Assembly: GCA_902625715.1 (NCBI GenBank)
Contig: CACOCP010000001.1
Coordinates: 186,001-250,000 of the forward strand
Direction of reading: 5' to 3'
From: an uncultured Pelagibacteraceae bacterium
Lineage (GTDB): Bacteria > Pseudomonadota > Alphaproteobacteria > Pelagibacterales > Pelagibacteraceae
DNA: 64,000 nt
Below are positions 55,194 to 58,169 of the stretch, one piece after another; the stretch's first letter is position 1; each line of letters opens with the position of its first letter. The notes beneath the pieces were generated by a model. That model did not search any database. It was not told the DNA's origin and saw nothing but the letters and a program-made list of their open reading frames with translations. Made by a program: the position numbers and the translations under genes.

Positions 55194-55748
55194 TTGATGA
55201 CTTTTAAAAAATATCTATGGAAATGTAGGTTGCTAGTTTTAAATACACCCAATTATAGTCATTCAGAATATAAGAGATCAAAAGATTTGTATCAAAAATA
55301 CATTATAGGCTTTCATAAAAGATATATAAAATTAATCACAAAATTAGATAAATCAAAAAAATTTAAAGTTATTTTAATTGGTTTTGATGGCAGAAAAAAA
55401 AATGAATTGGATAAAGTGTATACAAAAAAAATCTTTGAAATAGTTGATAAAATGCCAATGAATAAATTAATTAAAGACAAAAATTTTAAACCCTTAAATC
55501 TTTCCTTATTTTCAGATTATAAACCGGAGACAACTTTAAAAGGATTAGGCTTTAAAGATAAAGCAAAAGCGTTATTTACTGTTTCAGCTATAAAAAAAAG
55601 ACCATTAAAATATCAAGTAAATGTTATCGCTACTATGCTAGGTAGAGCCAAAAATCATCCAAATAAAACAAAAGATATGAATGATGCTATAGTTGTTTTT
55701 GATAAATGGATGGAAAATTATAAAATTAATAAAAAAAGTGAAAAATAA
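55194..55748 (+). CDS. DUF4174-like protein with an unassigned C-terminal domain
   Basis: A 184-residue basic protein. Residues 1-95 resemble DUF4174 (WKCRLLVLNTPNYSHSEY near 10-27, FKVILIGFDGRKKNEL, and EIVDKMPMNKL), a thioredoxin-fold-like domain found in Proteobacteria. Residues 110-178 (TTLKGLGFKDKAKALFTVSA; YQVNVIATMLGRAKNHPNK) are helical and not recognised. It could be a fusion. It overlaps the prepilin gene by 11 bp. The function is unknown. Confidence 0.68.
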   Translation: MMTFKKYLWKCRLLVLNTPNYSHSEYKRSKDLYQKYIIGFHKRYIKLITKLDKSKKFKVILIGFDGRKKNELDKVYTKKIFEIVDKMPMNKLIKDKNFKPLNLSLFSDYKPETTLKGLGFKDKAKALFTVSAIKKRPLKYQVNVIATMLGRAKNHPNKTKDMNDAIVVFDKWMENYKINKKSEK

Positions 55749-56226
55749 AGGTTTTACATTAATAGAGCTCTTAGTTGTTGTAGCTATAATAGGAATTTTA
55801 GCAGCAGTAGGAATAGTTGCTTATAGCGGTTACACCTCAAGTGCAAAAAAAAATAGTTATATAAGCCGTCATGATATCATAGTTAAATTTTTTAAAGCTG
55901 AATTTGAAAAATGCAATATTGGTGAAAAAGTTTATTTAGCAAATGATAACTTGACAGATCAATGTGAAAAAATTTTAGATCCCTCTCAAAGAAATTTAAG
56001 ATTATTAAGAGACATTCTTATAAATCACATAAATATTGTTATGAAATATAAGCAAGACAATGGTGATGTTGCGGCAAGAAAAAAAAATATAAATGCTCCT
56101 CTTTGCAACTATCTTGGTGAAATATGCCTAAAAAGGGACACAGCAAATGAGAGAATTGTAATAGTCAGCAATATTGATAATGATCAAAACAATTATCTAA
56201 CCAATTATCTAGATCTAGATTACTAA
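55738..56226 (+). CDS. Type IV prepilin-like protein
   Basis: A 162-residue pilin precursor. Starting at GTG 55738 gives the short leader MKNKG, then GFTLIELLVVVAIIGILAAV, the class III/type IVa N-methylation and cleavage motif with the essential Glu at +5, and a hydrophobic N-terminal helix. The track start at TTG 55693 adds a leader with no support. The C-terminal part has a Cys pair (CNYLGEIC). Prepilins are cleaved at Gly-Phe and assemble in pili or pseudopili. No pilus machinery is encoded nearby. Confidence 0.85.
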   Translation: MKNKGFTLIELLVVVAIIGILAAVGIVAYSGYTSSAKKNSYISRHDIIVKFFKAEFEKCNIGEKVYLANDNLTDQCEKILDPSQRNLRLLRDILINHINIVMKYKQDNGDVAARKKNINAPLCNYLGEICLKRDTANERIVIVSNIDNDQNNYLTNYLDLDY

Positions 56227-56234
56227 TTATTTTT

Positions 56235-56498
56235 TTGATAATATTATTTATGACTTTATTAAATGATAATATAAAAATGATGCCTTGTTCAGATTTTAGA
56301 ATTTTTTTAAAAAAAATGATTAATGATAAAATCGAAAAAGAATGGACAGAAAACTTTGTAGAAAACTTAAACTTTGTGATGGTATCTAGAAATACTATTA
56401 AAAGAAGGTCTGCCAAGACACTAGTTGTTCCTCTTTTTCTCTTTTTTGGCCTTTCTCTTTTCTTTAAGAGTAAGTTTTGGTTTTTTCATAACACTTGA
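56235..56498 (+). other. ORF of 87 codons, C-terminal part created by the inverted duplication
   Basis: Starts 8 bp after the prepilin gene with a hydrophobic and polar N-terminus (MIILFMTLLNDNIKMMPCSD), about 55 codons not explained by the repeat. From codon 56 on (KRRSAKTLVVPLFLFFG) it reads through the left arm of the inverted repeat, that is the complement of gdhA and of the small basic ORF. It is therefore probably a chimeric or truncated frame. The unique N-terminal part could be the remnant of a second minor pilin-associated gene. Confidence 0.3.
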
Positions 56499-56657
56499 AT
56501 TCCAATTCAAACAATAATCTTAATGTCTAAAAGGTACAGTGGTAAGTCATTTAAAGATTCAAGTGTTATGAAAAAACCAAAACTTACTCTTAAAGAAAAG
56601 AGAAAGGCCAAAAAAGAGAAAAAGAGGAACAACTAGTGTCTTGGCAGACCTTCTTTT
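56400..56657. repeat. Perfect 101-bp inverted repeat with 56-bp spacer
   Basis: Left arm 56400-56500 and right arm 56557-56657 are exact reverse complements over 101 bp. I checked by base-by-base pairing: coordinates of paired bases sum to 113057 throughout. The first mismatches are just outside each arm. The right arm holds the last eight sense codons and stop of gdhA (minus strand) and codons 12-37 plus stop of the 37-codon basic ORF (plus strand). The left arm repeats both in inverted order. Confidence 0.95.
56523..56636 (+). CDS. Small highly basic protein (37 aa) inside the inverted repeat
   Basis: ATG 56523 opens MSKRYSGKSFKDSSVMKKPK and continues LTLKEKRKAKKEKKRNN, rich in Lys with no hydrophobic part. 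The start and first 11 codons are in the spacer; the rest is in the right arm. A partial mirror copy (from its internal Met) exists in the left arm, minus strand (56421-56489). Its stop overlaps the convergent gdhA stop within CTAG. The reading frame has coherent basic helix composition and an upstream start, so it is plausibly real, but there is no recognised family. Confidence 0.5.
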   Translation: MSKRYSGKSFKDSSVMKKPKLTLKEKRKAKKEKKRNN

Positions 56658-58033
56658 GTATAAAATTTTCTAAGTTTCTTCAGAGATAAATAATAAGCAC
56701 TTTCTCTAAAAGATTTTTTAATTTGTTTCTTTACACTAAGTATTTCATTAAAAGAATTTCTCATTGAGTCTTCAAGACCTGAGTTAGTTAAATCAATTTC
56801 ATCAGCACCATGAACAATAGTATTTATTAACTCTGGATCTGTTTTTGTATTTGTTGTTTTTTCTATAAGCTTTATTAATTCTAACAGTTTATGCTCTTGA
56901 TATCTTTTTTCCATTCTACCAAATCTAATGTGTGATAAGTTCTTGACCCATTCAAAATATGAGACAACAACTCCACCAGCATTTACATAAATATCAGGAA
57001 GTACTGTTACTCCTTTATTAAATAATATTCTATCACTTGCAGGATCTATTGGCCCATTAGCAGCTTCAACAATTAGTTTTGTTTTGACTTTCTCAACATT
57101 GTCTTTATTGATAACACCCTCAAGTGCAGCTGGGACTAAAATATCACAATCAACTTCAACAATTTCTTTTGGATTTTTAATAAATTTTCCAAGCTCATTA
57201 TTTTCAATAGTTTTTTTGAATAAGACACATTCGATAAGCTTATTAATATTTATTCCTTTTTCGTTATACAAAATTCCATTGTATTCACCAATTGCGATTA
57301 TTTTTGCATTATCTCTATTATAAAGTTCATAAGCTAAATGTCTTCCAACATTTCCAAATCCTTGTATTACAATTCTATTATCTTTTAAATTTCCATTTAA
57401 TTTTGCTTTTTTAACTTCTTCTTTATTTCTAAAAAATTCTCTTATTACCTCTTCAATACCTCTTCCTGTTGCTTCAGTTCTTCCTGCAATTCCTCCTCCA
57501 TGTCTTGGTTTACCAGTAACACATGCTCTATAATTAATATCTTCTGGTCTTAAAGATTTATAAACATCTTTAATCCACCCCATTTCTCTCTCAGAGGTTC
57601 CAACATCAGGCGCTGGAACATTTATTGCTGGAGAAATAAATCCTTTTTTAATTAATTTTGTTGCAAAAGTTTTTGTAATATTTCTTAATTGATTTTCGTT
57701 GTATTCATTTGGATTTATTCTTAATCCACCTTTAGACCCACCATAAGGAATATCAACTATTGCACATTTATAAGTCATTAATGCTGCAAGAGCTTCTGTA
57801 TCATCTTGATCTACTGAATTTGAATATCTTAAACCACCTTTACTTGGCAAAATATGTTCTGAATGAACTGCTCTCCATCCAGTAAAATTTTTTATTCCAC
57901 CATCAATTTCAACTCCGACATTTACTTTAATTAATGAATGTGTCGCTTTAATATGTTCAAGTAAATCTGGAGTAAGATTTAAATTTTTTGCTGATTGTTC
58001 AACGTAATGGTCTACATTCTTTTTAAAAGACAT
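56633..58033 (-). CDS. gdhA: Glutamate dehydrogenase (Glu/Leu/Phe/Val family)
   Basis: A 466-residue amino-acid dehydrogenase. It has VEIDGGIKNFTGWRAVHSEHILPSKGGLRYSN at residues 41-72, MTYKCAIVDIPYGGSKGGLR with catalytic Lys (near 88), PAINVPAPDVGTSEREMGW, and the dinucleotide fold RIVIQGFGNVGRHLA (near 217). It would convert glutamate to 2-oxoglutarate plus ammonium or the reverse. The C-terminus lies in the right arm of the inverted repeat. It stands alone on the minus strand. Cofactor preference is not clear. Confidence 0.92.
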   Translation of the reverse strand: MSFKKNVDHYVEQSAKNLNLTPDLLEHIKATHSLIKVNVGVEIDGGIKNFTGWRAVHSEHILPSKGGLRYSNSVDQDDTEALAALMTYKCAIVDIPYGGSKGGLRINPNEYNENQLRNITKTFATKLIKKGFISPAINVPAPDVGTSEREMGWIKDVYKSLRPEDINYRACVTGKPRHGGGIAGRTEATGRGIEEVIREFFRNKEEVKKAKLNGNLKDNRIVIQGFGNVGRHLAYELYNRDNAKIIAIGEYNGILYNEKGININKLIECVLFKKTIENNELGKFIKNPKEIVEVDCDILVPAALEGVINKDNVEKVKTKLIVEAANGPIDPASDRILFNKGVTVLPDIYVNAGGVVVSYFEWVKNLSHIRFGRMEKRYQEHKLLELIKLIEKTTNTKTDPELINTIVHGADEIDLTNSGLEDSMRNSFNEILSVKKQIKKSFRESAYYLSLKKLRKFYTKEGLPRH

Positions 58034-58169
58034 TTTCTGATTAAACCAATTTTAATTTGTTTATTAAAGAATATTTATGTTCAATTTAGGTTAATGATAA
58101 GCTTATTAATAATGTAATTTATTACAAAAATCTTAGGAAAAAAGTTAATTGAAGAGAAAACCAAAGAAA

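Follow-up and report, generated by a model that had tools for sequence, protein, structure and literature searches.

A perfect 101-bp inverted repeat beside gdhA in a SAR11 genome, read as the footprint of a two-switch template-switch event

The gdhA locus and its inverted repeat

The stretch of DNA analysed here (the window; 64,000 nt from an uncultured member of the Pelagibacteraceae) holds, in order, a small ORF of chimeric composition, a 37-codon micro-ORF and the gdhA gene on the opposite strand, and the two arms of a long inverted repeat run through all three (Table 1). A repeat search of the window found the arms to be complementary at 101 of 101 positions, at the same coordinates as in the first-pass annotation, which had described exact 101-bp reverse-complement arms with 56 bp between them. 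Its account of their content also agreed with ours: the right arm takes in the gdhA stop codon (56633-56635) and the last codons before it, together with most of the micro-ORF.

Table 1. Features of the gdhA 3' region (positions within the window)
Feature	Position	Strand	Remarks
Chimeric ORF, 82 aa	56250..56498	+	N-terminal 53 codons of the orf90 family followed by 29 codons that lie in the inverted stretch and encode the hydrophobic tail SAKTLVVPLFLFFGLSLFFKSKFWFFHNT
Left arm of the inverted repeat (derived copy)	56400..56500	.	Absent from L036, L037 and G208
Microhomology at switch points 1/2, AAAAGAAG, 8 nt	56400..56407	+	Complement partner at 56650-56657; both places present in L036/L037
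Newly reverse-copied tract, 89 nt	56408..56496	+	Replaces a 94-nt ancestral orf90 tract (alignment with L036/L037)
Microhomology at switch points 3/4, GAAT, 4 nt	56497..56500	+	Partner ATTC at 56557-56560; ancestral TTTAGAATTTC in L036/L037
Spacer (hairpin loop), 56 nt	56501..56556	.	Residual orf90 3' end and micro-ORF start
Micro-ORF, 37 codons	56523..56636	+	Conserved, basic, intact; codons 12-37 in right arm
Right arm (source copy, ancestral in relatives)	56557..56657	.	87/101 identical to L037
gdhA, Glu/Leu/Phe/Val dehydrogenase family	56633..58033	-	Intact; 3' end in right arm, stop overlaps micro-ORF stop; Pfam PF00208/PF02812

We scanned for exact inverted repeats with arms within 5 kb of each other, leaving out self-overlapping palindromes. 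The second-longest in 799 kb of the same genome (69% of its length) measured 20 nt, and the longest in 774 kb from 23 fragmented congeners measured 19 nt. There was no second long inverted repeat in the 799 kb, and no fold-back footprint of at least 21 nt elsewhere in either set of sequences. When imperfect repeats were allowed, the best competitors in 2.4 Mb of SAR11 sequence (this genome together with complete and fragmented ones) scored 16-22, versus 101 for the repeat at gdhA. The 101-nt inverted repeat is thus far beyond chance, and AT-rich composition does not account for it. The only other long inverted repeat encountered, in the complete genome G082 (L106:9029-12192), is perfect over 110 nt with its arms 2.9 kb apart; it was rejected as a comparable case because its sequence looks like an inverted pair of tRNA genes.

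The micro-ORF differs from its L037 counterpart mainly at synonymous sites (dN 0.05, dS 1.3; dN/dS ~0.04). Across the genus it appears as a strongly conserved micro-protein (MSKRYSGKSFKDSSVMKKPKL.LKEKRK.KKEKK), with 21 invariant columns in 16 sequences, and its neighbourhoods vary: it lies beside gdhA, between typA- and groL-like genes, or after a fabI-like gene (names assigned by reading the sequences). Pfam, NCBIfam and PHROGs returned no family for the micro-ORF, nor for the orf90 gene described below.

Ancestral arrangement and the replaced tract

A GdhA search identified three close relatives (L035, L036, and L037; 97-98% protein identity, with 97% for L036 and L037), and a further relative, G208, carries orf90, the micro-ORF, and gdhA without the left arm. 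The L036 and L037 sequences are collinear with the window across a photolyase gene, a DUF4174 gene, the micro-ORF, and gdhA. In L036, L037, and G208, an intact 90-aa ORF (orf90) is followed directly by the 37-codon micro-ORF and then by the convergent gdhA. The place of the left arm is occupied in L036 and L037 by the remainder of the orf90 coding sequence. In L035, gdhA is separated from the micro-ORF/orf90 pair by other sequence of about 2.7 kb (L035:4400-7080), which marks the gdhA 3' flank as a variable site. A type IV pilin-like gene with an N-methylation motif (55735-56226) is intact in the window, and L036 and L037 retain a short remnant of it.

The orf90 gene is accessory, being carried by 24 of 200 other congeners, and is open without stops in all of them; the sole short match, in G167, starts 3 bases from a contig end. 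Only in the window genome is orf90 disrupted. There, the chimeric ORF has 85% identity to L037 orf90 over residues 1-53 and none beyond. Purifying selection is still visible in its first 52 codons when compared with L037 (dN 0.06, dS 0.69), as would be expected from a recent loss. A non-coding segment upstream of gdhA (58099-58160) is 81% similar to the 3' half of L037 orf90. We rejected it as the displaced orf90 tract since the same sequence lies upstream of gdhA in L035, L036, and L037; it is perhaps an old duplicate.

In the alignment with L036 and L037, collinearity holds as far as AAAAGAAG and resumes at GAAT. Between these points, 94 nt of orf90 (as counted in L037) have given way to 89 nt that match the window's own right arm in reverse complement, that is, the micro-ORF and gdhA 3' ends. 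The junction sequences pre-exist in the relatives: AAAAGAAG occurs there in orf90, with its complement at the 3' end of gdhA, and GAAT/ATTC likewise at the other junction. Because the outer 8 nt and the inner 4 nt were already in place, the newly copied tract amounts to 89-93 nt. Both arms differ from L037 at the identical 14 of 101 positions, which indicates that the template was the right arm of this lineage itself, already separated from L037. Two junction-spanning words, AATACTATTAAAAGAAGGTCTGCC and CATAACACTTGAATTCCAATTC, are each specific to the derived form.

In the terms of the four-point model of template switching, the switch points fall at 56407 (point 1), 56657 (point 2), 56557 (point 3), and 56497 (point 4), in the order 1-4-3-2, or 3-2-1-4 on the opposite strand. 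The locus shows three features of such mutations: an exact reverse complement 56 nt away, an ancestor that lacks the copy and is collinear outside it, and a permitted switch order. As read from these alignments, one template-switch event with two switches left the inverted repeat as its footprint. A very recent double template switch had been among the options listed by the first-pass annotation, and it fits in all details (ancestral state, two microhomology junctions, and event order). The annotation was also correct in its view that one simple fold-back join cannot explain the locus.

A polymerase copying orf90 would have arrived at AAAAGAAG, where its 3' end would have shifted to the complementary CTTCTTTT near the gdhA end on the other strand. 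About 90 nt would then have been copied in reverse through the 3' part of the micro-ORF before a return to the original template at the second microhomology. Read alternatively from the gdhA side, the nascent strand may have folded back at ATTC/GAAT and copied itself. As a result, 89 nt stand where orf90 had 94 nt, a perfect 101-bp hairpin has arisen whose loop measures 56 nt, and orf90 is truncated and carries a new tail, while gdhA and the micro-ORF are untouched. If the change is real, orf90 would lose its last 37 residues and gain 29 hydrophobic ones, with gdhA and the micro-ORF intact. The tail is rich in Phe and Leu because it is the Lys-rich micro-ORF in antisense (AAA/AAG read backwards gives TTT/CTT).

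Age and origin of the hairpin

The hairpin is unique to this genome among the congeners sampled. A left-junction query against 399 genomes (including this one), and also against 150 relatives, returned ancestral pieces only, and no congener shared the junction. With up to three mismatches allowed, the junction pattern occurred in 0 of 398 congeners, leaving this genome alone among the 399, and there was none in viral contigs. The absence of any difference between the arms points to an event that is either very young or was made in vitro. The gdhA dS values relative to L035-L037 are 0.32-0.38, hence roughly 0.16-0.19 on this branch, and about 15-18 changes would be expected since the split in the unconstrained left arm and about 7 in the right arm, against the 0 observed. 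Barring gene conversion, we infer that the event belongs to roughly the final 13% of the branch (a 95% bound, from 3/23) or is non-biological.

This distribution bears on whether the hairpin could instead be an old functional element (a structured RNA, a bidirectional terminator, or an RNase III substrate) whose arms are held identical by selection or gene conversion. The predicted RNA is very stable (-173 kcal/mol, z -27), and the micro-ORF start codon falls in the predicted loop. However, a terminator scan showed no terminator-like site, and the Rfam matches were to microRNA-precursor families below their gathering scores, of a kind obtainable from any long hairpin. A conserved RNA or terminator would be present in relatives with compensatory changes, and the hairpin is absent from them. 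The first-pass annotation had itself named coding sequence at this place in relatives as evidence against a maintained hairpin, and orf90 is what we found there in L036, L037, and G208. With the junction in no other congener sampled, we consider a functional hairpin very improbable. Of the annotation's three options, the double template switch fits and the hairpin kept by gene conversion or selection finds no support, while an amplification or assembly artefact would have produced an identical footprint. Inverted repeats also flank many mobile elements, and an integration, for example of an element with terminal inverted repeats, might be thought to have placed the left arm. This explanation is scarcely credible: instead of an insertion there is an exchange of 94 nt for 89 nt, the copy derives from the sequence next to it, both junctions show microhomology, and the spacer consists of orf90 and micro-ORF sequence of the host itself.

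More weight has to be given to the question of where the two switches took place. We regard it as more likely than not that they occurred in the cell or its recent ancestors. The assembly is without any unswitched version, and the 799 kb of the same genome hold no further footprint of this kind. An origin in the cell is favoured because the copying must come back to the locus and orientation that it left, whereas amplification chimeras are characterised as joins of two segments (PMC1855051). On the other hand, a switch placed uniformly along the branch would usually leave differences between the arms, and their identity is 100%. About 2.4 Mb of SAR11 sequence showed no older, diverged footprints as large as this one, which implies that natural events on such a scale are rare or soon disappear. 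Alternatively, the same two-switch event could have taken place in vitro, when the whole genome of a single cell was amplified with phi29, and have become the assembled consensus while the cell itself kept the ancestral orf90. Contig number, completeness, and the AG- names of the nearest relatives hint that the window genome may come from a single amplified cell; the three named relatives closest to it all bear such isolate names, in the style of single-amplified-genome collections. Chimeras from this amplification are inverted joins in more than 85% of cases, mostly intramolecular and primed at 2-21 nt of complementarity (PMC1855051). The same signature is seen here, with an inverted join at microhomology within 10 kb at both junctions. 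An in vitro event would always leave the arms without differences, and the benchmark quoted in PMC11247762 for GORG-Tropics single-cell assemblies is 1.5 misassemblies per 100 kb. The chimera signature, this benchmark, and the perfect arm identity are why we keep an artefact as the less likely but still substantial possibility. It would, however, require two switches with a precise return inside about 90 nt, and the chimera would have to outnumber the true copies in the reads. In addition, neither the 799 kb of the same genome nor the 774 kb from the 23 fragmented congeners contain a second fold-back footprint.

If the switch occurred in the cell, the result is probably a young variant that is neutral or mildly harmful. 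In E. coli, SbcCD cleaves long palindromes, and interrupted palindromes survive better (PMC4245961). SbcD, the hairpin nuclease subunit, was not detected in the window genome or in 45 further congeners that are at least 95% complete, in a search that was positive in 13 of 14 control genomes. Tolerance of a long hairpin by this SAR11 lineage may follow from this pattern of gene detection and is plausible. That the hairpin is a natural variant tolerated without SbcCD, and that the membrane-anchor-like tail on this small gene is in addition expressed and kept, we think very improbable.

A natural origin would make this a template switch of unusual size in an uncultured bacterium with a reduced genome, and one that can be reconstructed in full, since the ancestor, the source, the two seeds, and the product can all be seen. 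It would also show how slips of this kind can, in a single step, shorten a gene and create a hydrophobic tail. An in vitro origin would be a caution that amplified single-cell assemblies can hold two-switch chimeras that mimic microevolution and pass completeness and contamination checks.

Comparison with known template switches

The event resembles the short-range template switches described by the four-point model of Loytynoja and Goldman (PMC7954356, PMC8794818), in which a nearby reverse complement replaces a local tract. It shares with them the order 1-4-3-2 / 3-2-1-4 and the making of a perfect inverted repeat in one step. In great apes, these two orders are the majority patterns and generate single inverted repeats, and the copied tracts have a median of 12 nt and a maximum of 128 nt (PMC7954356). 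The tract in the window thus lies near the top of that range and, unlike the great-ape events, was found in SAR11 rather than a primate and in one genome only.

As in the quasipalindrome-associated template switches of E. coli, in the account taken from PMC7202029, a bacterial polymerase would have moved to a nearby inverted template. Those events, as that account describes them, perfect an existing near-perfect inverted repeat, whereas here a new 101-bp repeat arose, the relatives sharing the 8-nt and 4-nt seeds only. The inverted join, short distance, and microhomology within 2-21 nt are also those of amplification chimeras, which are mostly inverted, local, and seeded by such complementarity (PMC1855051). 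In contrast to these two-segment joins, the copy in the window rejoins the original strand, and reading continues.
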